Below, piece after piece: positions 4,882 to 46,978 of a stretch of DNA of 64,000 bases. The notes under the pieces are model-generated. The model saw only the letters and a list, made by a program, of their open reading frames with translations. It was not told the origin of the DNA and ran no database searches. A program made the position numbers and the translations under genes. Location: assembly GCF_002917925.1 (NCBI RefSeq), contig NZ_PPFE01000005.1, forward strand, positions 186,001 to 250,000, given 5' to 3'. This DNA is from Roseovarius confluentis (GTDB lineage Bacteria; Pseudomonadota; Alphaproteobacteria; Rhodobacterales; Rhodobacteraceae). Position 1 is the first letter of the stretch, and each line of letters opens with the position of its first letter.

Positions 4882-6621
4882 CTAGCCCCCCAACTTGACG
4901 TTATCGATGCCCACGATCCTGTCGTAGCACCAGTAGAGCACCAGCACGACGACCAGCAGGATCGTTCCCAGCGCGGCCGCCAGACCCCAGTTCAGCGAGC
5001 TGGAAATGTGGTAAGCGATCCGGTTCGAGATGAAGACACCGTCGGTGCCGCCCACGATCTCGGGCGTGATGTAGTACCCGATCGACAGGATGAACACGAG
5101 GATCGAGCCCGCGCCGATGCCCGGCACCGATTGCGGGAAATAGACCCGCCAGAAGGCCGTGACGTTCGTCGCGCCCAGCGATTTCGCCGCACGAAGGTAA
5201 GATGGCGGGATTGTCTTCATCACCGAGTAGAGCGGCAGGATCATGAACGGCAACAGGATATGCGTCATGGCGATGATCGTGCCCGTCGCGTTGTTCATCA
5301 AGATTAATCGGTTCGCGTCATCCACGAAGCCAAGCCAGACGAGGATCTCGTTGATCACGCCCTGTTGCTGCAACAGCACCTTCCACGCGGAGGTCCGTAC
5401 CAGCAGTGAGGTCCAGAAGGGCAACAGAACAAGGATCATCAGCACGTTCGCCGTGCGCAGCGGCAAATTGGCGAGGATCCACGCCACCGGATAGCCCAGC
5501 AGGATACAGCTGCCGGTGATGACCAGCGACATGTAAAGCGTGCGCATGAACAGCTTGATGTAGATCTGCTGGTTCTCGGGCCGTGCCTCGACCCCGTCGA
5601 AACCAAGCTGGTAATCTGCGGCGTTCAGGAAGTAGCCCGATGTGTAGGGCGACTTGTAAACGTTGATCGTTTTCCAAGTCTGCGGGTTGCCCCAGCCCTC
5701 ATCGATCTCGAGGAACGATTCCTTGAAATTCTGTTGCGGCTGATCGGCCAGCATCTCCTGCGCAGCGCGAAGTTCCTCGGCGCCAAAGCCATTGTAGGAG
5801 GACACGTCGGCACCGGCCTGCAGTTCTTCGATCAGGGCAATCTTCACAGATTCCCACGGCTCTTCCTCGGCCACCACGTCTTCTTCGGCGATGGCCGTAA
5901 AAACCGCGAAGCTGGCGTATTCATAGGCCGTTCGCGGGAGAAGCGCGGAAATTTCCGCGCCGGGCAGGAAGCCGGTGCCGCCTGTGAACGCGTCGCCCGT
6001 CAGGGCTCGCAACCGGGCACGGGCACGGTCCAGCACGTCCTGGTCGGTGTTCTCGGCATTCTCACCGCCGCGCATCAGGTCGAACCAGAACGCCTCATTA
6101 TCCCAAGTGTCCTCGGCCAGATCCTCGAGCGCGTCGATCTGGTCTTCGCCAATCTCATCAAGGTCGCGCCCGACGGAGCGGAACTGCGAGGACAGGCCGG
6201 TTTGTTCGTAGTTCAGGCGCGTGCCCAGCTTGGTGTGTTCCTTCGCCTCGGAGGCGAGGAACAGGTCATAATAAAGCGCCTCGTAGACGGGCTCGTCCGG
6301 CAGGTCGCTTGCATTCGGATCCCACTCGGAAATCACGCTGACCGTCTGCGGCAGCGTGTCCGGTACAATCGTGTTGTCGACCGAACGCAACAGCATTGAA
6401 ACGATGGGAACGATAAAGGTAACCAGAACGAAGATCAGAAGCGGGGCGATCAGCAGCAGCGCCCGCATCTTCTGGCGGCGTAAGGTGCGCGAAAGACTTT
6501 TCTTGAGCGGTGTGCCGTCTGCGGCCAGAACCGGGCCGCTGTCGTTGCTGTCCGCAATGCGTAGCCCATCATCTGGCGTGGGCGCCGCCTTGCCGGTCGT
6601 GGCGTCAGTCACATCGCTCAT
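4882..6621 (-). CDS. ABC transporter permease, PotB-type with large extracytoplasmic insertion
   Basis: The 579-residue protein is the first permease of the Pot-type operon. One hydrophobic helix (about residues 52-80) is followed by some 275 mostly polar, acidic residues (about 81-356), then the usual PotB-like membrane core beginning near IYIKLFMRTLYMSLVITGS. The EAA-type motif LRAAKSLGATNVTAFWRVYFP lies near the C-terminal third. Ordinary PotB proteins are about 280-310 residues, so the insertion nearly doubles the length. By topology it should face the periplasm. The ATG at 6621 is preferred over more upstream starts because GGGGA precedes it. The insertion is acidic and helix-prone and matches nothing I recognise. 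Confidence 0.84.
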   Translation of the reverse strand: MSDVTDATTGKAAPTPDDGLRIADSNDSGPVLAADGTPLKKSLSRTLRRQKMRALLLIAPLLIFVLVTFIVPIVSMLLRSVDNTIVPDTLPQTVSVISEWDPNASDLPDEPVYEALYYDLFLASEAKEHTKLGTRLNYEQTGLSSQFRSVGRDLDEIGEDQIDALEDLAEDTWDNEAFWFDLMRGGENAENTDQDVLDRARARLRALTGDAFTGGTGFLPGAEISALLPRTAYEYASFAVFTAIAEEDVVAEEEPWESVKIALIEELQAGADVSSYNGFGAEELRAAQEMLADQPQQNFKESFLEIDEGWGNPQTWKTINVYKSPYTSGYFLNAADYQLGFDGVEARPENQQIYIKLFMRTLYMSLVITGSCILLGYPVAWILANLPLRTANVLMILVLLPFWTSLLVRTSAWKVLLQQQGVINEILVWLGFVDDANRLILMNNATGTIIAMTHILLPFMILPLYSVMKTIPPSYLRAAKSLGATNVTAFWRVYFPQSVPGIGAGSILVFILSIGYYITPEIVGGTDGVFISNRIAYHISSSLNWGLAAALGTILLVVVLVLYWCYDRIVGIDNVKLGG

Positions 6622-6666
6622 AAAGTCCCCGTCGGCAGATTGTTGATTTGTTTTTCTTATCGGTGT

Positions 6667-6690
6667 GGAAGGGCCGCGCGCGGCCCTTCC
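6667..6690. promoter_or_regulatory. intercistronic GC-rich hairpin after binding-protein gene
   Basis: A perfect 24-bp palindrome with arms GGAAGGGCCGCG / CGCGGCCCTTCC lies between the binding-protein stop (6712) and the next permease (start 6621). There is no T-run after it in the transcribed direction. It therefore looks like an mRNA-stabilising or partial-termination element rather than a full terminator. Confidence 0.6.
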
Positions 6691-6711
6691 AGGTAGCTTC
6701 AAGCGGACCGC

Positions 6712-7824
6712 TTATTGCGCCAGCCACGCCTGGAATTTGGCGTCGATGTCGTCGCGGTAGTCAGCCCAGAACTCGTAGTTGTAGAGGAACGTGTTCTCGG
6801 CGTTGTCCGGGTCGGTCGGCATGTGCGGAGCCATGTCGATACCCAGTTCCGCGTGCTGACCCACCAGCGGTGCCGAGGAGGCACGGGCCGGACCGTACGA
6901 GATGTACTTGGCCTGGTCGGCCAGACGCTGCGTGTCGGTCGCGAACATGATGAAGTCCTTGGCGCGGGCCAGGCGATCCTCGGGCAGGCCCTCGGGGATG
7001 ATCCAGCCGTCCAGGTCAAAGACCTGCGCGTCCCACATCATGCCGATCGGCTGATCCTGTTCTTCGATCGCGGCAAACAGGCGACCGTTGTAGGTCGAGC
7101 CCATGAAGACTTCGCCATCAGCCAGAAGCTGCGGCGTGTCGGCACCGGCGGACCACCAGATTACGTCGTCCTTGATGGTTGCCAGCTTGTCCAACGCCTG
7201 TTGCTGACCTTCAGCTGTGGCCAGAACGTCGTAGACTTCTTCTTTCGGAACGCCGTCACACAGCAGCGCCCATTCGACGTTGTTGATCGGGCGCTTCTCC
7301 AGCGCGCGCTTGCCCGGGTAGGTTTCCAAGTCGAACACGTCGCAGATGTCGTTGGGCGCTTCCACGCCTTCCGGAACCATGTCGGTGCGATAGCCGAAGG
7401 TGGTCGAATAGACGATCTGCGGGATGAAGCAGTCACCGACCAGCAGTTCACCGAAGTCTTCCTCGGCCGAGGTTCCGTCGGGTGCCGCGGCCAGGTCTTC
7501 CTCGGGGTCGATTTCCATCGCCAGACCTTCGTCGCACAGGCGCAGCGCGTCAGCGGCCACGACGTCGACGACGTCCCAGGTGATGTTCCCGGCCTCGTCC
7601 ATCGCGCGCAGCTTGGCCACGGCCTCGTTTAAGCTTTCGTCCCAGATCACTTCCAGGCCTTCGTTCATTTCCTGGTAGGGGTCGGTATACGCGTTCTTCT
7701 GGCTCGCCTGATAGGCGCCGCCCCAGGACACGACGGTCATCGAGTCGGCCATTTCCTGTGCGTGAGCCGACGCGGCTGCAACCGTCAGTGCGGTTGTGGC
7801 CATGAGTGTTTTCGTCAGTTTCAT
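6712..7824 (-). CDS. periplasmic substrate-binding protein, PotD/PotF family
   Basis: This exported binding protein of 370 residues begins with a clear signal peptide, MKLTKTLMATTALTVAAAS, cleaved near AHAQ. The mature part has the PotD-like opening (DSMTVVSWGGAYQASQKNAY) and late motifs such as PEGLPEDRLARAKDFIMF, typical of family 1 extracellular binding proteins for polyamine-type transporters. The ATG at 7824 was chosen because it starts the signal peptide and follows GGGAGT. It is the second gene of the operon, after the ATPase and before the two permeases. The true ligand is not predictable by eye. Other members of this group bind spermidine, putrescine or opine-like compounds. Confidence 0.87.
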   Translation of the reverse strand: MKLTKTLMATTALTVAAASAHAQEMADSMTVVSWGGAYQASQKNAYTDPYQEMNEGLEVIWDESLNEAVAKLRAMDEAGNITWDVVDVVAADALRLCDEGLAMEIDPEEDLAAAPDGTSAEEDFGELLVGDCFIPQIVYSTTFGYRTDMVPEGVEAPNDICDVFDLETYPGKRALEKRPINNVEWALLCDGVPKEEVYDVLATAEGQQQALDKLATIKDDVIWWSAGADTPQLLADGEVFMGSTYNGRLFAAIEEQDQPIGMMWDAQVFDLDGWIIPEGLPEDRLARAKDFIMFATDTQRLADQAKYISYGPARASSAPLVGQHAELGIDMAPHMPTDPDNAENTFLYNYEFWADYRDDIDAKFQAWLAQ

Positions 7825-7938
7825 GTCATACTCCCAAAAGTACTCCCGTTTACCTTTCGGGCCCCATGTCACGGGAACAACATGCGGACCTCGTTCTATC
7901 CGGGCTAGCTCAGAGGCCCGCCCGAATGCCTTAAACTC

Positions 7939-9042
7939 CTAGTTCGCATCCAGTGCGCGGCAATCTTCGGGCAGCCAGCCGATCTCTATCGTCTCACCCG
8001 GCTTGAGCCGCGTCTGGTCCGGCGCGTTCCGCGACTTGATCACGAAATTGTCGTTGCCCGCCACGCTGAGGCGCGTGCGGAAGATGTCACCCATATAGAT
8101 GAATTCCAGCACTTCGGCCTTGATCGTATGAGTGCCTTCCTTGAGGCGCTTCTTGTCGAATTCGACACGTTCAGGCCGGATCGAGACGCGGGTACGTTCG
8201 CCTACTTCGCTGACGTTGACCGGCTTGCAATCGATGATTCCACCATCGTCCAGCTGCACCTGCGCGAGACCGCCCTGGATCTCCTTGACGGTGCCTTCCA
8301 GCGTGTTGTTCTCGCCGATGAACTGCGCGACGAAGCTGTTCTGCGGGCTTTCGTACAGCTCGTCCGGTGGCGCAAGCTGCTGGATGCGGCCATCGTCGAA
8401 CACCGCGACGCGGTCCGACATTGTCAGTGCCTCGGTCTGGTCGTGGGTCACGTAGACCGTGGTGATGCCAAGATCATGCGCCAGATTGGTGATCTCGAAC
8501 TGCATGTGCTCACGCAATTGTTTGTCGAGTGCGCCCAGCGGTTCGTCCATAAGCACCAGCTCGGGCTCGAACACCAGAGCGCGGGCCAGCGCGATCCGCT
8601 GTTGCTGACCGCCCGAAAGCTGAGCCGGACGTCGGCCACCGAAGTCGCCCATCTGCACCATGTCCAGCGCCCGCTTGACCTTGGCCTCGCGGTCGGACTT
8701 GCCGATCTTGCGCACTTCCAGCGGGAAAGACAGGTTCTCGGCCACGGTCATGTGAGGAAATAGGGCGTAGTTCTGGAACACCATGCCGATGCCACGCTTG
8801 TGCGGCGGGATATCGTTGATGGAAACGCCATCAAGCAGAATGCGGCCGTGGGTGGCGGTCTCAAACCCCGCCAGCATCATCAGGCAGGTGGTCTTGCCCG
8901 ACCCGGACGGCCCGAGCATGGTCAGGAACTCGCCCTTGGGCATGGAAAGGTTCAGATCCTTCACGACAAGCGTCTCGCCGTCGTAGCTTTTCTGAACGCG
9001 ATCAAATGCGACGAACGCATCGCTCGCTTGCGCTTCGGTCAA
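7939..9042 (-). CDS. ABC transporter ATP-binding protein, PotA-type
   Basis: This is the cytoplasmic ATPase of the transporter, 367 residues from a TTG start at 9042. The TTG has GGGGAGACA just upstream, whereas an in-frame ATG at 9120 has no such site. Walker A (GPSGSGKT) lies at about residues 44-51, the signature LSGGQQQ at 142-148, and Walker B with MDEP at 165-168. A TOBE-type C-terminal domain follows (SIRPERVEF onwards), typical of PotA/MalK-like ATPases. It is the first gene of the leftward operon and shares a 430-nt divergent region with the M24 enzyme gene. The TTG start is my inference. Confidence 0.88.
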   Translation of the reverse strand: MTEAQASDAFVAFDRVQKSYDGETLVVKDLNLSMPKGEFLTMLGPSGSGKTTCLMMLAGFETATHGRILLDGVSINDIPPHKRGIGMVFQNYALFPHMTVAENLSFPLEVRKIGKSDREAKVKRALDMVQMGDFGGRRPAQLSGGQQQRIALARALVFEPELVLMDEPLGALDKQLREHMQFEITNLAHDLGITTVYVTHDQTEALTMSDRVAVFDDGRIQQLAPPDELYESPQNSFVAQFIGENNTLEGTVKEIQGGLAQVQLDDGGIIDCKPVNVSEVGERTRVSIRPERVEFDKKRLKEGTHTIKAEVLEFIYMGDIFRTRLSVAGNDNFVIKSRNAPDQTRLKPGETIEIGWLPEDCRALDAN

Positions 9043-9472
9043 GAGTGTCTCCCCATCGTTTTTGTCCGCGGTTTCCCCGCGCTTTGCTTGGAATAAAGCT
9101 AGTTTCCGCCGCTGATGCAAGCAGACTCATAAACTCATCCGGCTCGATATACGCTTGAAGGCAAATCGCCTGCATCTGCCCAGTAAAAAGTCACTTTTCC
9201 CGTGTTTCACGCTGTATCGCGTCGAACGACGCTCAAAAATTCATCGAAATCCGCGGCTTGTCGCGGTCTGGAACGCCCGGTTTGGCAGGGGTTCGACGCG
9301 TCATTCGGCCGATACAAAGGGCCAGAGCCGCACCCGCGCGCAAGATTACTTCGTCGGTCGGTCACAACGTTCTGAAGCGAATTTTTTGCGTGCAATCCCC
9401 TGAATTGGGATGCAGGCTCGACACGCTGCGGATGTTCCATCCCGCCCGACGATGATGAGGAGCACCATCACA
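9043..9472. other. divergent intergenic region
   Basis: These 430 nt separate the leftward transporter operon from the rightward M24 gene and must contain both promoters. I see no convincing inverted repeat, attachment site or small gene. A ribosome site (GATGAGGAG, about 9454-9462) serves the M24 gene. Confidence 0.5.
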
Positions 9473-10654
9473 ATGAAAGACCTGCCCTTTACCCCTGTCG
9501 AGTACGACCGCCGCTTGAAACGGGCCCGTGCCGCGATGGAAGAGCGCGGCCTCGACGCCGTTTTCATCACCGATCCGTCCAACCAGAACTGGCTGACCGG
9601 CTATGACGGATGGTCCTTCTACGTGCACCAGGGGGCGATCCTGACGATGGACGGCCCGCCGCTTTGGTGGGGCCGGCACATGGACATGCTGGGGGGGCGC
9701 AGGACCTGTTGGATGGAGCACGATTTCATCCTTGGATATGGCGACCATTTCGTGCAGTCGACCGAACGCCATCCGATGCAGGATCTGGCGGAAGTGCTCA
9801 AGCGGTACGGGCTGGAAACCGCGACGATCGGCGTGGAAATGGAGAACTATTACTACTCCGCCAAGGCCCATGCCGTGCTGTGCGAGGAAATGCCGAAAGC
9901 CAAGATCGTCGACGCCACGACGCTTGTGAACTGGCAGCGGATCGTCAAATCCGAAGAGGAGCTGGTGTTGATCCGCAAGGCCGCCCGCATCTCGGAAAAG
10001 GTGATGCGCACCGCCATCGACATGGCGGAGCCCGGGCTGCGCAAGAACGACCTTGTGGCCAACATCCTGAAGGCCGGGATCGAGGGCGTGGATGACGACT
10101 GGGGCGACTATCCGGCGATCATGCCGCTGACCCCTTCGGGCCTCGATGCCACCGCCGCGCACCTGACTTGGAACGGCAACCCGATGCAGGCCGGCGAGGC
10201 GACTTTCTTCGAACTTTCAGGGTGTTACCGCCGCTATCATGCGCCGCTGTGCCGGACGGTTTTCCTTGGCGGCGAGCCGCCGCAGGACATACGCGACGCC
10301 GAGAGAGCGCAGCTGGAAGGCATCGAGGCGGGGCTGGAAGCGGCGCGACCCGGCAACCGCACCTGCGATATCGCGCAGGCCCTTCTGGATGTTCTGGCCA
10401 AGTACGAAATCAAGCGCGAAGGGCGCATGGGCTACCCTGTCGGCGTCAGCTATCCACCCGACTGGGGCGAGCGGACGGCGTCGATCAGGTTGGAGGATGA
10501 CACGGTGCTGGAACCCGGCATGGTGTTCCACTTCATGCCGGCCCTCTGGATGGATACCTGGGGTCTGGAGACGACCGAGACGATCCTGATCAACGAGGAC
10601 GGACCGGCGGAATGCCTGTGCAACATGCCCCGGCAGATGTTCGTCAAGGACTGA
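9473..10654 (+). CDS. M24-family metallopeptidase-like enzyme, probably ectoine hydrolase (DoeA-type)
   Basis: This 393-residue creatinase/Xaa-Pro-dipeptidase-fold protein closely resembles DoeA/EutD. Shared stretches are DPSNQNWLTGYDGWSFYVHQ, HFVQSTERHPM, IGVEMENYYYSAKA, DATTLVNWQRIVKS and AAHLTWNGNPM. DoeA opens the ectoine ring to give N-acetyl-diaminobutyrate. The start at 9473 has GAGGAG upstream. Usual partners (doeB deacetylase, doeC, doeX, ehu/uehABC transporter) are not adjacent, so the substrate may be ectoine or a related cyclic or dipeptide-like compound. The Pot-type transporter is divergent from it and could supply the substrate; that link is inference. The protein is soluble and lacks a signal peptide. 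Confidence 0.78.
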   Translation: MKDLPFTPVEYDRRLKRARAAMEERGLDAVFITDPSNQNWLTGYDGWSFYVHQGAILTMDGPPLWWGRHMDMLGGRRTCWMEHDFILGYGDHFVQSTERHPMQDLAEVLKRYGLETATIGVEMENYYYSAKAHAVLCEEMPKAKIVDATTLVNWQRIVKSEEELVLIRKAARISEKVMRTAIDMAEPGLRKNDLVANILKAGIEGVDDDWGDYPAIMPLTPSGLDATAAHLTWNGNPMQAGEATFFELSGCYRRYHAPLCRTVFLGGEPPQDIRDAERAQLEGIEAGLEAARPGNRTCDIAQALLDVLAKYEIKREGRMGYPVGVSYPPDWGERTASIRLEDDTVLEPGMVFHFMPALWMDTWGLETTETILINEDGPAECLCNMPRQMFVKD

Positions 10655-10810
10655 CGCGAATCAGCCGGCGGGAACCACGGTAAACGCTGGCTGAGACGCC
10701 GAAATGGCACGTCGGTATCGCGTCGGTATCCGGGTGGTATGGCGACGGTGCCATGTTCGGCATCCTGGAGGGTTTGCAGAGCGTACGGCGCATCGAGCCG
10801 GCGTTTACGT

Positions 10811-11998
10811 TTACTGCCGTACCGTGATCCAATCGCGGCCCAGAAGCGGACCGATATCGGCCCGATCCGCATCCTTGAGCTCCAACGTCCTGAGCTTGGG
10901 CAGGTCAGCAATCGGGGTCAGGTCGCGCACCGGCGTCGCGCTTAGATCGAGGCGGGAGAGCTCGGGCAAGCCTGACAAGGGCACAAGGTCGCTCACCTGC
11001 GTTTCGCTGAGATAGAGCCTGTTCAGGGACTTCATGCCCGAAAGGGACGAGAGATCCGACACCGCCGTTCGATCCATGTCGAGGGTCGTAAGTTGGGTCA
11101 TCCCGGCGAGCGGCTTGATATCGGTGACGGCAGCGCCGCCGAGGTAAAGCGAGCGCAGCTCGGTCAGATCCGACAGCGGCGACAGGTCGGACACCGGCAT
11201 GTCCCGAAGCGACAGGGTGTTCAACCGCGTCAAGCCTGCCAGCGGCGACAGGTCAGCCACCTCCGTCTGTTCCATCACCAGTTTGACCAATGTCGACACG
11301 TCGGCGAGGGGCGACAGGTCGGTCACGGCGGTCTGGGAAATGTCCAGTTCCTGCAGCGCGGGATGCCCGGCAAGCGGGGACAGGTCCGAGATGTCGGTCG
11401 CGAAGATCTGCAAAACGCGAAGGTTGGGCATATCCGCGACGAAGGAAATATCGGAGATGTTGCTGGACCCGATGTTCAGCACGGTCAGATCGTTCAATTT
11501 CGACAAGGTGCTGAAATCGTTCACCTTCGCCCCGAAAAGGCTCAGGCGGGTCAGGTTCGGCAGGCCGGTCAGCAGGCTCAGATCATCAGCCTCGGCCCCC
11601 GTGCTCATGATCGTGCGGATCGAGGTATTGCCCTGAAACTCCGACAGCCAGCCGAATTGCGGGCCGCGCATCGAAACGATGCTCTCGGATTGGGACGTCA
11701 CGCATTGCGATCCGAAACGGATACCCGGCAAGCCGTCCGCGTCACAAGGGATCGGGGGACCGTTCTGTTCGGCGACGGTGGTGCGGGCTTTTTCGAGGAT
11801 GAATTCCGAGGTTCGTGGCGCCCGCGCTTTGACGACCGGGTCCTTCGCCATCTCCTCGATCTTGGCCAGCAGCTTTTCGTCATGGCTGGGTTCAGCCGTG
11901 GCCTTGGGGCCGATGGCCTGAGACCACGTCACGAGCCCCGCGCCCACGATAAGAATGACACCGAGGATCAGCCCGATAAATGCAATGTATTTAGACAC
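10811..11998 (-). CDS. membrane-anchored leucine-rich-repeat protein
   Basis: The 395-residue protein starts with an uncleaved-looking hydrophobic helix (residues about 5-28) followed by a charged, helix-prone linker. From about residue 130 to the end it consists of roughly twelve 22-residue leucine-rich repeats, with the recurring pattern V-x-DLSPL-x-x-L-x-x-L-x-x-L of internalin/SDS22-like repeats. A Cys pair (PCDADG...SQCVTS) precedes the repeats. The topology suggests the repeat arc sits in the periplasm, as a binding surface for an unknown partner. It is monocistronic, transcribed leftward and convergent with the M24 gene. I do not recognise a specific family and no function is assigned. 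Confidence 0.8.
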   Translation of the reverse strand: MSKYIAFIGLILGVILIVGAGLVTWSQAIGPKATAEPSHDEKLLAKIEEMAKDPVVKARAPRTSEFILEKARTTVAEQNGPPIPCDADGLPGIRFGSQCVTSQSESIVSMRGPQFGWLSEFQGNTSIRTIMSTGAEADDLSLLTGLPNLTRLSLFGAKVNDFSTLSKLNDLTVLNIGSSNISDISFVADMPNLRVLQIFATDISDLSPLAGHPALQELDISQTAVTDLSPLADVSTLVKLVMEQTEVADLSPLAGLTRLNTLSLRDMPVSDLSPLSDLTELRSLYLGGAAVTDIKPLAGMTQLTTLDMDRTAVSDLSSLSGMKSLNRLYLSETQVSDLVPLSGLPELSRLDLSATPVRDLTPIADLPKLRTLELKDADRADIGPLLGRDWITVRQ

Positions 11999-12103
11999 TG
12001 TTCTGCCCCTGAAATGAAACTGCCACGCAATTGCTTTGCGCGGCAGTCTCTTTCTTCATTGGGACGAAAGATGGGCGTCCTTGGTCAATTTCAATGGCGC
12101 GGC

Positions 12104-13501
12104 CTAGCTGGCCGCTTTCATCAGGCCTTCGTCTTTCAATTGCTTGTGCGCGAGGTCGAGGGCGATGTTTGCCCGTTCGACCAGCGTGTCGATCTCGGAC
12201 TTGGTGATGACCAGCGGCGGCGAGATCACCATGCGGTCGCCGACGTGACGCATGATCAGGCCGTTGGAAAAGCAATGCTCGCGACAGATCAGGCCCGCGG
12301 TGCCGGCATCGGCGGCGAACCTGGCGCGGTTGGCCTTGTCGGGGCTGAGCGCGATGGAGCCCATCAGGCCGCAGATCGCGGCCTCGCCCACCAGCGGGTG
12401 ATCGGCTAGGGTTTCCCATTTTTCCTTCAGGTAAGGCGCGGTCTCGGACCCGACGCGGGTGACGATGCCTTCCTCGTCGAGGATGCGCAGGTTTTCCAGC
12501 GCCACCGCGCAGGTCACCGGGTGGCCGGAATAGGTGTAGCCGTGGGCGAACTCGCAGCCGTTCAGCACCTCGGCCACCTCGTCGCTGACCAGTGAGCCGC
12601 CGACAGGGGCATAGCCCGAGCTGACACCCTTGGCGATGGTCATGACGTCGGGCTTGATGTCGAAGGTTTCCGAGCCGAACCAGTTGCCGGTGCGCCCGAA
12701 GCCGCAGATCACCTCGTCGGCGATCAACAGGATGTTGTACTTGCGGCAGATGCGCTGGATTTCGGGCCAGTAGGTTTCGGGCGGAACGATCACGCCGCCC
12801 GCGCCCTGCACCGGCTCGCCGATGAAGGCGGCGACCTTGTCTTCGCCCAGTTCGAGGATCTTGTCCTCGAGCTGGCGGGCGCGCTCAAGCCCGAATTCGG
12901 CTGGATCAGTGTCTTTTCCCTCGCCGTACCAGTAGGGCTGGTCGATGTGATGGATGTCGGGGATCGGCATGCCGCCCTGGGCATGCATCGCGGCCATGCC
13001 GCCCAAGCTGGCACTGCCCATGGACGAGCCATGGTATGCGTTCTTGCGGCTGATGATGGCCTTTTTCTCGGGATGGCCCTTCTGCTCCCAATAGGTGCGG
13101 ACGAGGCGGATATTGGTGTCGTTCGCCTCGGACCCCGAGGAGGCGAAGAAGACGTGGTTCAGGTCGTGCGGCGTCAGCTGCGCCAGCTTGTCGGCCAGCG
13201 CGATGGCGGGCACGTGGGTCGTCTGGAAGAAGGTGTTGTAATAGGGCAGTTCCTTCATCTGGCGGGCGGCGGCCTCGGCCAGTTCCTCGCGGCCATAGCC
13301 GATATTGACGCACCACAGGCCCGCCATGGCGTCGAGATAATCATGCCCTTCGCTGTCGGTCAGGGTCACGCCCCTGGCGCGGGTGATGACACGCGCGCCC
13401 TTCTTGTTGAGCGCGTCGCCATGGGTGAAGGGGTGCAGGTGATGCGCGGCATCCAGCGCCTGAAGCTCGGCGGTGGGCATATGATTGGTGATGGCGGTCA
13501 T
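12104..13501 (-). CDS. spuC: class III PLP aminotransferase, probably putrescine:pyruvate type
   Basis: This omega-aminotransferase has 465 residues. The family blocks are visible: HPFTHGDAL near the N-terminus, DAMAGLWCVNIGYGREEL, the cofactor region FFASSGSEANDTNIR, the Asp in LLIADEVICGFGRTG, and the Schiff-base lysine in TIAKGVSSGYAPVGG. The start at 13501 is preferred over 13516 because of AAAGG upstream. It is transcribed leftward, with the GntR gene just behind it and potFGHI plus a PuuB-like oxidase divergent. That context points to putrescine or cadaverine deamination. Close relatives also act on taurine, beta-alanine or aromatic amines, so substrate is inferred from context. Confidence 0.82.
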   Translation of the reverse strand: MTAITNHMPTAELQALDAAHHLHPFTHGDALNKKGARVITRARGVTLTDSEGHDYLDAMAGLWCVNIGYGREELAEAAARQMKELPYYNTFFQTTHVPAIALADKLAQLTPHDLNHVFFASSGSEANDTNIRLVRTYWEQKGHPEKKAIISRKNAYHGSSMGSASLGGMAAMHAQGGMPIPDIHHIDQPYWYGEGKDTDPAEFGLERARQLEDKILELGEDKVAAFIGEPVQGAGGVIVPPETYWPEIQRICRKYNILLIADEVICGFGRTGNWFGSETFDIKPDVMTIAKGVSSGYAPVGGSLVSDEVAEVLNGCEFAHGYTYSGHPVTCAVALENLRILDEEGIVTRVGSETAPYLKEKWETLADHPLVGEAAICGLMGSIALSPDKANRARFAADAGTAGLICREHCFSNGLIMRHVGDRMVISPPLVITKSEIDTLVERANIALDLAHKQLKDEGLMKAAS

Positions 13502-39877: not shown

Positions 39878-39963
39878 GCCCAGGTGGCGGAATGGTAGAC
39901 GCGCTAGCTTCAGGTGCTAGTGTCCGTATGGACGTGGAGGTTCGAGTCCTCTCCTGGGCACCA
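39878..39963 (+). tRNA. tRNA-Leu (anticodon CAG)
   Basis: The gene has 86 nt including the encoded CCA. The acceptor arms GCCCAGG (39878-39884) and CCTGGGC (39953-39959) pair perfectly. The anticodon stem CTAGC/GCTAG encloses loop TTCAGGT with anticodon CAG at 39911-39913. The long variable arm typical of leucine tRNAs and the T-loop TTCGAGTCC are present. It marks the left edge of the AT-richer accessory stretch. Confidence 0.95.
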
Positions 39964-40661: not shown

Positions 40662-42440
40662 TTACTTTTTTAACCATCGCTCGTGAAGGCCAGCGGCCTC
40701 GTTGCGATAGTAGTCAAGGACATGCTGCATGTTCTTTTGTTCTTTCTCGCTTGTGTGCGCAACCTGACGGGCATAGTGACGACGGCCGTCTTCCAGCCTT
40801 TTCATTATATATCTGGGTACATCTTCTTTCGTGGACCGTAGTTTTTGTATGTATACACCCGTCATAACATAAGGTCTGCGCGGATCTAACTTTCCATAGG
40901 TCTCAACCTGAGAAAGCCACAGAGCCTCTGGCAAGGGCTTGCCCCAATGCTTGTCCAAAATGAGGTTTGCAACGTTTTCCGCCTCAAAGGGTAAGACTGG
41001 GAAGAGAGTTCCTATGTACGCGCGTGCATTAGCGAATGTGAAGCGCGCCGCAAGCTCATGCCAAGAGACACATGCATTATTTATGATGATCGGGGTACTG
41101 CTACCAGCTATCGCAACGGGCATCGGAATGAAGTTATTGTCAAACATTGCCATGGCCGCCGATGACCGTACCCGGTCAAGCGTCTCTTTATGAATTGGCT
41201 CAAAGTCTTCTCTGCCCGACCATTCCGAATAGTCCTTGATTGCACTGCCGACGTAGAGATCGGCCTTTGCTACCGGATCGCTCCAATCGACCCCATCAAG
41301 GGAATGGAAGTAAGAAAATTGCACTACTTTGAGTAGATTGTCATCATCGGTACGACCGATACCGATGGCTATATCGACTTTCAACTGACGTTCGATCCCC
41401 TCGCTGTCCGTGAACTCGTAAGTCCATCGCCAGCCATCAGCATCGCCGCAATGCGTTGCGAATACGAGCAGATCATAGGGATAATGATCGACCATGTCTG
41501 TGATTCTTGTGACCTCTGCCGCTTTCCCACGATACGCCCGCACAAAAACGCGCTTTTTGGGCAAAGCCTTGGTGGCCGCATCGATCTCGGGAGCTGGTGT
41601 CTTCTCAGGGTCCACCAAGACTGCCACGTTCACCCCCCTACTGCGGGCCTGTTCAGCCGCAAAACCATTCACCAAGGACACACCACAATCCGGATATGTG
41701 AAGATATGCGTTGAAGGATGCGCCGGAAAACCTACCCCGAAAGGAAGCTGCTTAGTGAAAAATGAGAGCGAGGCACCCGACCCCAATTCAATATCGCCAC
41801 ATAGGTCGCGCAATTCACGCTGCAATTCGAGACGTTGCTGCCCATTTTCAGACGCATAAAACTGTTCAAGGATTTGCTCACTGACTTTAGGGTCGACCTT
41901 GGGGATAATTGTGAGCGAGGCACCAAGAGCATAAGCATAGTTGGCCGCATTCACTTCCGCAAGATCGTTTCCCGCTTCGCACACGACATGATGTCTGCTC
42001 TTTCCAACGACAGAGGCTGTCGTTGGCCCACCATTTTCAAACTCAATGAGACGCCCTTCATGGAGGGCTTGGAGAAGGCCAACACCAATATTCTCAAGCC
42101 CCCAGATAAGCCGTTTGTTGCCAACCATTGATTTCAAAGCGAAGCTTTCGACGTCTGAAGCGCCGCAAAGTCGAACAACTTTACTTGGGAGCAGATCGGT
42201 CATGGCCGTTAATTGAGCGTCCGACAGGCCAGTCAGAACAACACGATCTGCTTCTATCCGAGCTAGCGCATTGTTTCGCCGCAGGGCCTCTGCATTTGCG
42301 TCTGGCCGAGCCATTCTTGGCCCATCCATTACAGTCAGATAGTAAAACTTTCGAGCCATGGCGGAGCTAAAACGGGCGGCCAGATGAGGATCGTCTGAAA
42401 TAACAGCGGTCTTCAGAAGCTTTGGCACGCGTAGCGTCAT
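40662..42440 (-). CDS. stand-alone CHAT/caspase-like putative protease
   Basis: The protein has 592 residues from ATG 42440, preceded by GGGGGAGT. The C-terminal half has the layout of a CHAT (caspase-HetF) domain: the strand-His motif YDLLVFATHCGD with His330, then IIINNACVSWHELAARFTFA with Cys457, then ARAYIGTLFPV and GKPLPEALWLSQ, the usual CHAT tail. The His-Cys pair would be the catalytic dyad of clan CD proteases. The first 290 or so residues have no domain I recognise; CEAGNDLAEVNAANYAYALG looks like one helix of an alpha/beta fold. No signal peptide or membrane helix is seen. It sits alone in the island beyond tRNA-Leu. CHAT proteases elsewhere act in bacterial defence and cell death, so a defence role is plausible but inferred. 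Confidence 0.75.
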   Translation of the reverse strand: MTLRVPKLLKTAVISDDPHLAARFSSAMARKFYYLTVMDGPRMARPDANAEALRRNNALARIEADRVVLTGLSDAQLTAMTDLLPSKVVRLCGASDVESFALKSMVGNKRLIWGLENIGVGLLQALHEGRLIEFENGGPTTASVVGKSRHHVVCEAGNDLAEVNAANYAYALGASLTIIPKVDPKVSEQILEQFYASENGQQRLELQRELRDLCGDIELGSGASLSFFTKQLPFGVGFPAHPSTHIFTYPDCGVSLVNGFAAEQARSRGVNVAVLVDPEKTPAPEIDAATKALPKKRVFVRAYRGKAAEVTRITDMVDHYPYDLLVFATHCGDADGWRWTYEFTDSEGIERQLKVDIAIGIGRTDDDNLLKVVQFSYFHSLDGVDWSDPVAKADLYVGSAIKDYSEWSGREDFEPIHKETLDRVRSSAAMAMFDNNFIPMPVAIAGSSTPIIINNACVSWHELAARFTFANARAYIGTLFPVLPFEAENVANLILDKHWGKPLPEALWLSQVETYGKLDPRRPYVMTGVYIQKLRSTKEDVPRYIMKRLEDGRRHYARQVAHTSEKEQKNMQHVLDYYRNEAAGLHERWLKK

Positions 42441-43540
42441 GGACAGGATACTCCCCCGTACTTCATTAAAAATTTTGGTTCTGCAAAAGGCAAAAACCCT
42501 TAAACACAACAACACACACTGTCTTCACGCAGCAAGACTGATGCACATTTTGTGTCGTTCCATTAGACAATTCAACTGAAAGTCCGCTTCTTGAATGCGG
42601 ACGGGCTGCAGTCGCACCCGCAGAGAATGTCCGCTCCCCGCCCCTCTCCGCCAGATGCTTCATGTGCGAGAAGCAGTCTCTTGCGTATACAGCGAACGGC
42701 GGGAAGATCCGCACAGCTGACACCCGAGACCTTGAAACTGCCCCTCTGATTTCTGCGAGGGCAATAGCCTGTTAGAACCGTGTTACACTCCGGGTCAGGC
42801 GTGGTTCTTTAACGCATCTGGTAAGGGGATTGCGGATCGATGCCAGCCGTTTTTTGTCGCGATACCGGGTTTGATTGGAGCATCTCAGGGCATCCAAATC
42901 CTCGATGACGGTCAGGTGGCCACAGGGCCAGGCGTGGAGCGCTGGAATAGAGCGATGAGTTAGCCATTATTTCGGCATAAACAGTCTCCAGAAAATGAAA
43001 AATGCGGCAACCGCCAATCACAGACGGTCGCCGCTTTCATCATAGAAATCAGTTTTAAACACTCGTTACTGATAGACATCATTGCGTTCTGTCCGTGCGT
43101 TAAATGTGGCGCGATTGTGTCCGAAATTGGCCGTTCAGGGTTTTCTGCGAAACAACCCGTTTCGAAAAACGAACTGCAATGTAAGTCTTCGAACTTTGCT
43201 CCAATCGCATGTCACGCCTCGCGGTAGATTGCCGTCGTTATCCGCAATAGACGCTGGCTACAGCACGGGCCGGATCGAGGGTGCGAATGCATGCTTGGCG
43301 GAGTGCGCGAATTAATCCTTGTTTGCAGCGACAGAGCCACGTCTTCAGATGTGAAGGCAGAAAATCTAGAGCACTGGCATTCCTGAATAAGGTCCGGGCA
43401 GAAGTTTTTGCTGCTTTCTTTCCAACCAGCCGTCGCAATTTTATCCACTTCGCCTTATAGTTGTTTGGGGATGGCGTGATGCACGTAAAATGTATTCGAC
43501 CGCGCGCTGCGAAAAAAGTTTCTGCTTGTGGGAGGAGAAA
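42441..43540. other. 1.1-kb region without recognisable gene
   Basis: Short frames on both strands (up to about 125 codons) lack ribosome sites and family features. The first part upstream of the CHAT-like gene should hold its promoter; the last part holds that of the response regulator, whose ribosome site GGAGGAG is at 43531-43537. Otherwise I see nothing supportable. Confidence 0.55.
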
Positions 43541-44521
43541 ATGCACCTTCTGGCCGTAGATGACGAACCGGCAATCCTCCAGCTCATCGAGCTGTTGGTC
43601 CAGTTCAATGGAGAACACACGGTAACCACTGCAGAATGCGCAGTTGATGCACTTGACGTGCTAGCGCAGCCCGACGCTGAGCCAATTGACTGCTTCCTGG
43701 TGGATATTCAGATGCCCGGAACAGACGGTATTGAGCTTTGCAAGATCCTGCGAAGTCGGCATGATCACAAGAAGACGCCAGTCCTTATGCTGACGGCAAT
43801 GTCGGACAAGTCGTACATCGACCGAGCTTTTTCGGCTGGGGCCACTGACTACATCACCAAACCAATCGACATCGATGATCTGCTCGGGCGTATCAAACTG
43901 ATAGAAGAGATTGTCTTCAGTCGAAAGAAGCAAAACCAACAGCCAGATTTGAGTAACACAGGTGCGACCGAAACCGACGCGCCGCTGGCACTGCACGAAC
44001 CGTTCCACGTGCGCGATATAAACGGGATGATCGATTACCTGGCCCTTGAGAATTACATTTCCTTAATGGCACGCAAGAAGCTGTTCGGTTCAGCTGTGTT
44101 TGCATTCAGCATTCGCGACATCGAAGGCCTGTTCCGACAAACCTCGCGCTTCGAATACGAATGTCTCGTGGCGGATGTGGCCGAGGCCATCACATTGGGT
44201 CTCAGCGAACATCCACATTTAATATCGTATGCTGGGAACGGCACTTTTGTATGCATTGTTGAGGACGGATGGCAGCCGGATTCAGAAGCTCTGGCCGATA
44301 AGGTGAATATAGCCATTCACACCCTAGGACTCTATTTCAATGACGGCAGGCCGATGTCTGTCAAAGTGTCTGCTGGCGATGTCATACGCTTGGTTTGGAA
44401 AAGTGGCGACAGCGCAATAGATGCCCTGTCAGCCGCGCATCAAAGTGCCGAGAAAGAAAGTCGACGTTACGCAAAAGACCTCGAAAACTTCTGGGACGAT
44501 AAGGACATCGTATCACGCTGA
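43541..44521 (+). CDS. response regulator with degenerate GGDEF-like output domain
   Basis: The 326-residue protein has an N-terminal CheY-like receiver (about 1-120): MHLLAVDDEPAI gives the acidic pair, FLVDIQMPGTDGIEL the phospho-acceptor Asp, and DYITKPIDIDDLL the conserved Lys. After a polar linker, residues about 175-320 follow the length and order of a GGDEF domain. The signature position reads YAGNGTFVCIV instead of GGDEF, and the end (DALSAAHQSAEKESRRYA) imitates the GGDEF C-terminal helix. It is probably catalytically inactive and binds a partner or nucleotide. GGAGGAG sets the start. No kinase is adjacent. Confidence 0.78.
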   Translation: MHLLAVDDEPAILQLIELLVQFNGEHTVTTAECAVDALDVLAQPDAEPIDCFLVDIQMPGTDGIELCKILRSRHDHKKTPVLMLTAMSDKSYIDRAFSAGATDYITKPIDIDDLLGRIKLIEEIVFSRKKQNQQPDLSNTGATETDAPLALHEPFHVRDINGMIDYLALENYISLMARKKLFGSAVFAFSIRDIEGLFRQTSRFEYECLVADVAEAITLGLSEHPHLISYAGNGTFVCIVEDGWQPDSEALADKVNIAIHTLGLYFNDGRPMSVKVSAGDVIRLVWKSGDSAIDALSAAHQSAEKESRRYAKDLENFWDDKDIVSR

Positions 44522-44840: not shown

Positions 44841-45122
44841 ATGATTCAGAGCACCAAGGGCAAATTGGCGGATAGGGCCGTTGCCGGGAAATACGGCAAA
44901 GGATGCCCTGCCAACCTTGTAAAGCGAACGATTGCTATGCTCGCCGCGATGGATGCTGCTTCGGTTCTTGAGGATCTCCGGTTCCCACCGGGTAATCACC
45001 TCGAAGAGCTAAAGGGTGACCGCGCTGGTCAGTACTCCGTTCGCATAAACGACCAGTGGCGCATCTGTTTCACCTGGACCGAGCTTGGTCCTGCTGACGT
45101 TGAGATAGTTGATTACCACTGA
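44841..45122 (+). CDS. higB: HigB/RelE-family toxin
   Basis: This small basic protein of 93 residues has the RelE-fold family ending NDQWRICFTWTELGPADVEIVDYH and the middle PGNHLEELKGDRAGQYSVRI, typical of HigB toxins that cut mRNA on the ribosome. It comes first in the operon with its antitoxin 12 nt downstream, the usual HigBA order. No ribosome site lies upstream of the ATG and the promoter -10 is only 7 nt away, so translation may be leaderless. Confidence 0.9.
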   Translation: MIQSTKGKLADRAVAGKYGKGCPANLVKRTIAMLAAMDAASVLEDLRFPPGNHLEELKGDRAGQYSVRINDQWRICFTWTELGPADVEIVDYH

Positions 45123-45134
45123 AAGGAGCCGACT

Positions 45135-45425
45135 ATGACCATGCTGCAAGTGCCGGTCCATCCCGGCGACGTGCTTAATGAGCTTTATCTGGAGCCGCTG
45201 AATATGAGCGCTCCTGCCCTCGCCAAGAAACTTGGAGTGCCTCGCACTCGTATTGAACGCGTATGCAAGGGTGAAGTTGCTCTCAGCGTTGATACGGCTT
45301 TTCGCCTGGCGAAGTTCTTTGGTACGACCCCAGAGTATTGGGTGAATATGCAAAAGAACTATGAACTGATTAGAGCTCGTAGTGAAATAGACGTCTCCAA
45401 CATCCAACCGTTGGAAGAGGCTTAA
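45135..45425 (+). CDS. higA: HigA-family antitoxin
   Basis: The 96-residue XRE-type helix-turn-helix protein begins HPGDVLNELYLEPLNMS, then PALAKKLGVPRTRIERVCKG (HTH), then FRLAKFFGTTPEYWVNMQ, all hallmark HigA sequence. GAAAGGAG precedes the ATG. It neutralises HigB and should repress the operon at the 44813-44831 palindrome. Confidence 0.93.
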   Translation: MTMLQVPVHPGDVLNELYLEPLNMSAPALAKKLGVPRTRIERVCKGEVALSVDTAFRLAKFFGTTPEYWVNMQKNYELIRARSEIDVSNIQPLEEA

Positions 45426-46009: not shown

Positions 46010-46978
46010 ATGAAACGATTTTTGCTGGGAACCGCGTTCGCCGTAGCCACGCCCGTGGCTGCAGCCGCACAGGATTGCGGGGAGGTCTCGATCGCTGAAA
46101 TGAACTGGGCCTCGGCGCAGATCGTCGTCGCGGTCTCGGACTTCCTGCTGACACAGGGCTATTCCTGCGACGTAACCGTTGTTCCGTCGGACACCACACC
46201 GGCCGTCACCTCGCTTTCGGAGAATAACGAACCCGATGTCGTGCCCGAGATGTGGCCGAACTCGGCCGGCGACGCCTATGACAAACTCAAGGAAAACGGG
46301 CGCATTGTCGAGCTGACCAGCGTCCTGAACCCCGGCGGCGTCGAAGGTTGGTGGATCCCGACCTACCTTGCCGAAGAGCATCCTGAACTGACCACCATTG
46401 AGGGTGTGCTCGAAAACCCCGACCTCGTTGGCGGCATGTTCAACAACTGCCCCGATGGTTGGGGGTGCCGCACGGTCAGCGATAACCTGGCCCGTGCTTT
46501 CGATCTCGAAGGCAACGGCATCGAGGTGTTCAACCACGGTTCGGGCGAAACCCTCGCGACCTCGATGGCCTCGGCCTATGAAAGCGAAGAACCGTGGTTC
46601 GGCTACTACTGGGGTCCGACAACGCCGCTGGGCAAGTTCGACATGACCCGCGTGGAGCTGGGCGAGTATGACGAGGAAGCGCATTCCGCCAACCAGAACC
46701 CGGATAATCCGGATCCGCAGCCCTCGGAGTTTCCGACGGCGCCGATCCTGACGGTCGTCACCAAGGACTTTAACGACAACAACCCCGAGCTGGCGGAGTT
46801 CTTCAGCAAGGTGTCGTTCGAGACATCCGAGATGAGCCAACTCCTTGCCTGGCAGGACGAGAACAACGCCTCAACCGAAGAGGCTGCGGTCTACTACCTG
46901 CAAAACAACCAGGACACTTGGAGCGAGTGGCTGAACGAAGAGGCACGCGGGAACCTGTCCGAACTGCTCGAGCAGTAA
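46010..46978 (+). CDS. proX: glycine betaine/choline-type ABC transporter binding protein
   Basis: The 322-residue exported protein has signal peptide MKRFLLGTAFAVATPVAAAA. The mature part has the OpuAC/ProX layout: VSIAEMNWASAQIVVAVSDF, the tryptophan-bearing stretches VPEMWPNSAG and GVEGWWIPTYL that would form the cage for quaternary ammonium, and PWFGYYWGPTTPLGKFDM. GGAG lies just before the ATG. It is followed by a strong hairpin, then proW and proV. Likely ligands are glycine betaine, choline, carnitine or proline betaine; which one cannot be told. Confidence 0.9.
   Translation: MKRFLLGTAFAVATPVAAAAQDCGEVSIAEMNWASAQIVVAVSDFLLTQGYSCDVTVVPSDTTPAVTSLSENNEPDVVPEMWPNSAGDAYDKLKENGRIVELTSVLNPGGVEGWWIPTYLAEEHPELTTIEGVLENPDLVGGMFNNCPDGWGCRTVSDNLARAFDLEGNGIEVFNHGSGETLATSMASAYESEEPWFGYYWGPTTPLGKFDMTRVELGEYDEEAHSANQNPDNPDPQPSEFPTAPILTVVTKDFNDNNPELAEFFSKVSFETSEMSQLLAWQDENNASTEEAAVYYLQNNQDTWSEWLNEEARGNLSELLEQ

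Follow-up and report, generated by a model that had tools for sequence, protein, structure and literature searches.

A diverged CHAT-like protease gene beside a tRNA-Leu in Roseovarius confluentis, with relatives amid phage genes

We identified a gene in Roseovarius confluentis whose product is assigned, with good support from sequence comparisons, to a diverged CHAT subfamily of caspase-like (clan CD) proteases with a longer insert between the predicted catalytic histidine and cysteine. It lies in a low-GC island beside a tRNA-Leu, within a 64,000-nucleotide stretch of DNA (the window) that belongs to contig C21 of a 4.46 Mb genome, and its full-length relatives sit in phage surroundings. This setting makes the protein, whose N-terminal domain has no match in the libraries searched, a candidate for an anti-phage protease encoded by a single gene. 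The coordinates of the gene, its parts and the adjoining tRNA are collected in Table 1.

Table 1. Position of the CHAT-like gene, its predicted parts and neighboring landmarks in the window.
Feature	Position	Strand	Remarks
tRNA-Leu (CAG), edge of variable region	39878..39963	+	synteny break in 4/4 relatives compared
CHAT-like protease gene, diverged	40662..42440	-	592 aa, ATG start, stop codon included; purifying selection
C-terminal helical tail, residues 541-592	40665..40820	-	6/52 positions invariant
CHAT-like protease domain, residues about 222-540	40821..41777	-	P0003/P0004 Pfam matches, hhalign, hmmsearch with controls
Codon of Cys457 (NNAC.SWH), predicted nucleophile	41070..41072	-	invariant 4/4
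Enlarged His-Cys stretch, residues 341-446	41103..41420	-	33/106 positions invariant; partly beta predicted, low confidence
Codon of His330 (ATHCGDA), predicted catalytic	41451..41453	-	invariant 4/4
N-terminal domain, residues 1-215, alpha/beta	41796..42440	-	alignment, AF2 model
GGGGGAG, ribosome-binding-site-like	42451..42457	-	

The first-pass annotation treated this reading frame as a real gene, and several lines of evidence bear it out. The 592-residue translation contains no internal stops, and its ATG at position 42440 is preceded by GGGGGAG about 10 nt upstream and aligns with the start of a relative, P0002. An alternative GTG at 42515 would lengthen the frame in the window, but the spacing of GGGGGAG and the alignment with P0002 make this longer start unlikely. 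Comparing the window gene with P0002 gave a pN of 0.241, far below the pS of 0.814; because synonymous sites are saturated at this distance, we leave the ratio of the two unquoted. Two pieces of a broken copy from Sagittula gave pN 0.231 with pS 0.701 and pN 0.108 with pS 0.792. Amino-acid change in the window gene has clearly been held back, and a chance reading frame is ruled out. A scan for promoters and terminators returned nothing usable above chance numbers.

Searched alone, the window protein (P0001) has no match in Pfam at E values up to 10, CHAT included, in PADLOC/NCBIfam or PHROGs at E up to 1, or in the PDB sequences at E up to 10; further PDB sequence searches gave chance-level entries such as chitinase-3-like protein 2, which were dismissed. 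P0002 likewise has no match to PF12770, the CHAT model. Both proteins nevertheless belong to a family of four full-length members, in which P0002, P0003 and P0004 (591, 612 and 604 residues) are 62, 47 and 45% identical to P0001. A His-Cys dyad, histidine first, is invariant in all four. In the window protein it consists of His330 in FATHCGDA and Cys457 in NNACVSWH, which lie 127 residues apart, exactly as had been proposed from the sequence at the outset. P0003 matches PF12770 with an E value of 8.5e-6 and 25.8 bits, above the gathering score of 24, and the match aligns its residues 465-527 with profile positions 213-279, just after Cys460. In P0004, residues 278-335 align with profile positions 97-151 and end at His335, with an E value of 0.005 and a score of 16.7 bits that is below the cut-off. 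The two matches place the CHAT halves on either side of the dyad, separated by about 130 residues in the family versus 62 profile positions. From the invariant dyad and these matches, on the cysteine side in P0003 and weakly on the histidine side in P0004, we conclude that the family is a diverged CHAT subfamily; since the window protein is 47% identical to P0003 along its length, its own membership follows. The original CHAT assignment therefore holds by way of P0003 and, weakly, P0004, but not through any match of the window protein itself.

Further comparisons addressed the region around the dyad. His and Cys are 127, 127, 127 and 126 residues apart in the four family members, versus 82-86 in 22 of 23 loci with Pfam CHAT domains and 45 in the other one, although this yardstick (23 of 30 fetched loci, those cut at an edge being excluded) is biased because all 23 are best-scoring matches. 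We built a CHAT HMM from 24 sequences, one of which (L066) owed its own discovery to the family profile, and it scored P0003 at 15.0 bits against 4.2 for the best of 1004 shuffled or reversed controls. P0004 (-0.1 bits), P0002 (-2.2) and P0001 (-3.4) all fell under that best control, and in all four proteins the best stretch lay at the same place after the cysteine. Alignment of the family with 23 CHAT sequences by hhalign was weakly supportive, with probabilities of 7.7-9.1%, a score of 30.6 against 28.2 for the best of 50 shuffles (one template), and cysteine on cysteine in two of three template orders, the third alignment beginning after the cysteine. In a run of the family profile over 369 genomes from the class of G815, the TPR-CHAT protein L066 was matched in register with a per-genome E value of 6.8e-4. 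Because the same run matched a transporter (L065) by chance at 5.9e-4, it is the identity of L066, and not its E value, that counts for CHAT. PF12770 scores above its cut-off in 107 of 398 genomes of the phylum, and the model found no CHAT protein in the host genome.

The part of the protein without recognizable relatives turned out to be shorter than the 290 residues first allotted to it. Judging from the profile position of the P0004 match and the alignment, CHAT-like sequence would begin near residue 222, which leaves an unmatched front of about 215 residues. Residues 1-215 have no match in Pfam or PHROGs and only chance-level entries among the PDB sequences, and they carry the conserved motifs DD, DGPR..R.D...E, WG..N, H.V.CEAG and AANYA. 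An AF2 model gives alpha/beta structure for residues 11-220, with block pLDDT values of 50-91. Of the 45 positions at or just after strand ends, 17 are invariant, versus 36 of 180 elsewhere (p 0.012, one-sided Fisher test); for positions up to and including strand starts the figure is 6 of 44. The model that sets the strand limits is shallow, and we take this distribution as no more than a hint that the domain may hold a ligand pocket.

The remainder of the model was less informative. Mean pLDDT was 35 with two alignment rows and 49 with four, and most residues between 230 and 549 had values under 50. The CHAT half is uninterpretable, so we claim no distance between the dyad residues. Foldseek against the PDB, with a model mostly below pLDDT 50 in that half, gave no caspase or CHAT entry among the 50 rows listed of 786 (E up to 10). 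The first match, Cwp6 (5j72_A, E 4.4e-4), was rejected with a TM of 0.22 and an rmsd of 16.8, and a viral structure library contained no match to this low-confidence model at E 0.001 or better.

The family resembles the CHAT domain PF12770 in the order of histidine and cysteine and in its in-register similarity on the cysteine side (P0003) and, weakly, on the histidine side (P0004), but differs in the spacing of 126-127 residues, in the motifs ATHCGDA and NNAC.SWH, and in having no TPR match. SAVED-CHAT effectors of type III CRISPR systems have a sensor-like domain in front of CHAT; the family would be alike in its putatively sensor-like front domain, whereas at the sequence level none of its four members has a SAVED match (Pfam, E up to 10). 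Borvo, a single-gene system, has a CHAT domain in common with the family, but all four members are without a match to the BovA model at the limits used. PMC10952713 places a CHAT protease in both Borvo and type III-E CRISPR. Within type III-E, Craspase/TPR-CHAT (Csx29) is a CHAT protease tied to CRISPR immunity, according to PMC10028731 and PMC9729208; by contrast, the window family has no TPR match (Pfam, E up to 10) and no CRISPR effector is found among the island genes examined in the window. The family has no name. We found no description of it in the literature searched, whose coverage left out most subscription papers, nor in the available parts of PMC10952713, PMC10028731, PMC9729208, PMC11417357, PMC11229360 and PMC10907252.

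All three full-length relatives come from viral contigs, P0002 (locus L003) found with the protein and P0003 (L026) and P0004 (L060) with motif patterns. The viral contigs were scanned eight times, more than any other collection, so the phage location of the relatives is in part a product of ascertainment. Matches elsewhere were few in the genome sets, which overlap. Scanning 40 relatives returned only the window gene's own copy. Of 345 genomes of the same taxonomic family, three gave matches, one being the own copy, another (G301) a broken copy and the third (G363) a short remnant. Two matches in 385 genomes of the class were the own copy and a chance match, three in 398 genomes of the phylum were the own copy and two chance matches, and two in the 369 genomes from the class of G815 were a chance match and an ordinary CHAT protein. 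A scan of genome contigs with one sequence yielded one locus (L002), from Sagittula salina, apparently the G301 copy. This copy is interrupted: its readable pieces extend as far as residue 414 or so, the frame changing near residue 238, an IS1595-type transposase-domain gene comes next, and the remainder beyond it contains stops. The short remnant in the other genome of the same taxonomic family (L005:1339-1659) is decayed, 42% identical to residues 2-90 of P0003, and keeps the motif LDGPRMTRPD.

Other candidates did not hold. In plasmids neither P0001 (at 0.01) nor P0002 (at 10) had a match, and in the phage collection P0001 had none at 0.01; rows for a Leptolyngbya plasmid (E 9) and for phages (H5-H10, E 0.09 to 9) were set aside. 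Loci L008, L058, L059 and L065, each the top pick among hundreds of genomes, gave local tblastn matches with E values of 8e-7 to 0.003 over 38-152 residues, the best being L058 with P0002. We dismissed them as chance, and their reading frames read as other proteins, which we take to be ATPase-like, TPR-like, flagellar or unassigned, and transporter-like. L061-L064 contain no reading frame of the family and no local tblastn match at E up to 0.01.

Each of the three full-length relatives is surrounded by phage genes, and the position differs in every case. Upstream of P0002 are tail-fibre proteins and a lysin-like protein with a CHAP domain; on its other side is a GAF-domain protein followed by IetS, IetA, a D12 methyltransferase and a ParA-like gene. 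PADLOC recognizes IetS with an E value of 9.8e-48 and IetA with 2.1e-82; this AAA ATPase and subtilase pair and the GAF-domain protein fall within L003:10545-14935. With its ParA-like gene, the contig is possibly a phage-plasmid. P0003 occurs in a Mu-like head module in the order Portal_Mu/Mu F protein, virion morphogenesis protein, HSDR_N gene, P0003, head maturation protease. Two features of this module are of separate note, a PBECR2 nuclease-like domain at the end of the Mu portal/F fusion protein (L026:1978-4749) and the stand-alone HSDR_N gene directly before P0003 (L026:5985-7097), which has no PADLOC match. P0004 is located between MerR/flavodoxin-fold genes and the terminase subunits (Terminase_2, Terminase_3). 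Among flanking reading frames (up to 4 kb) at five loci there is no shared neighbor gene; matches of 22-69 residues with E values of 0.001 to 0.008 were taken as chance. The three different phage positions suggest that the family is phage-borne cargo.

In R. confluentis, the gene occupies an island that had been recognized from the sequence, where GC content drops to 50-52% over 40-46 kb versus 59-63% in the 4 kb bordering it to either side. DNA similarity in four relatives reaches the tRNA-Leu and then ends. Among island genes we recognized a response regulator (43490-44521) and a HigB/HigA-like toxin-antitoxin pair (44841-45425), and a glycine-betaine transporter starts at window position 46010. 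The C-terminal half of the response regulator is without assignment. Apart from the HigBA-type pair, no other defence gene was recognized near the window copy, and no phage gene was recognized among the surrounding reading frames scanned. We rejected the response regulator as a partner because in the closest relative (G012, L082) its homologue follows the tRNA-Leu, inverted, with the CHAT gene absent. This result and the five-locus comparison agree with the first-pass annotation that the gene stands alone.

The same tRNA-Leu carries an integrated element in a sister species (G006; L083, about 5748-12428). The 3' end of the tRNA recurs there, imperfectly, about 6.6 kb further on, and this repeat runs on into the same bases that in the window come immediately after the tRNA. 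Between the two copies are a phage-type integrase directly behind the tRNA, a resolvase and a DndB-like gene. The DndB family is linked to defence. The tRNA-Leu thus serves as an integration site in the sister species, and the element inserted there includes a gene from a family linked to defence. In the window, the last 18 nt of the tRNA-Leu occur once at up to 2 mismatches and form no att repeat. The tRNA there still has its native flank behind it, and no second copy was found, so the CHAT stretch does not represent an intact G006-type element. The flanking DNA has no plasmid match, five short flanking reading frames have no Pfam match, and Rfam returned only the tRNA.

Caspase-like proteases of bacterial immunity mostly act with infection-sensing partners. 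We propose that the window gene encodes an anti-phage CHAT protease that is spread by phages, works as a single protein and acts through abortive infection, a proposal that we hold to be evenly balanced between right and wrong. The N-terminal domain (about residues 1-215) would probably sense a ligand or a phage protein; alternatively, infection could be sensed by the His-Cys insert. Sensing would switch on the CHAT protease, which would then cleave host or phage proteins and stop growth. Phages would spread the gene as cargo, and the gene would most likely shield its lysogen or host against other phages. We infer the protease activity, the sensing by the N-terminal domain and the abortive outcome, as well as the defence role, for which the context speaks, namely the phage cargo, IetAS near one relative, and an integration-site tRNA with a DndB-like element in the sister species.

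The tail and lysis, head and terminase neighborhoods of all three relatives would also fit a protease that serves the phage itself, cleaving host proteins or host immune proteins in counter-defence or takeover, with the window copy as a phage remnant. We consider this unlikely, as the position varies from phage to phage, one copy is near an IetAS pair, and the window copy is open, conserved and without recognized phage genes among the reading frames scanned. A factor for prophage maintenance or stress, such as a protease under ligand control that acts on a regulator by cleavage and so governs lysogeny or host physiology, is a distinctly unlikely reading. It would make use of the possible ligand pocket suggested by the enrichment of invariant residues at C-terminal strand edges, and control through a fused domain is common among CHAT proteases. 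Nevertheless, the five loci share no neighbor beyond short weak matches, different phage types carry the family, and no phage gene is recognized around the window copy.

The remaining alternatives concern the protein itself. Weak direct similarity to known CHAT proteases and the unusual His-Cys spacing might point to a CHAT-like scaffold or partner protein that has lost catalysis, an idea to which we give little credence because four proteins, with identities as low as about 45%, keep the dyad and the motifs around it without change and a dead scaffold would not need them. Membership of the window protein in the single-gene Borvo system is highly improbable: PMC10952713 does list a CHAT protease for Borvo, but the PADLOC BovA model does not match P0001, P0003 or P0004 (E up to 1) or P0002 (E up to 0.01), whereas an ordinary TPR-CHAT protein weakly matches it (E 0.0033), showing that the model is present and responsive to CHAT.

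Within our preferred reading of an anti-phage protease, we tentatively picture a phage-disseminated caspase in one polypeptide, in which a new alpha/beta sensor domain would switch a CHAT protease with an enlarged insert and provide immunity for lysogens. With similar reserve, we suggest that such a protein may dispense with TPR, gasdermin, CRISPR and second-messenger partner genes. The four-sequence alignment and the motifs DGPR..R.D...E, ATHCGDA and NNAC.SWH provide a signature for a family that PADLOC 2.0.0 misses. If our reading is true, temperate phages would carry a single-gene system that combines sensing and proteolysis in one chain, and both its trigger and its substrate could therefore be sought directly.
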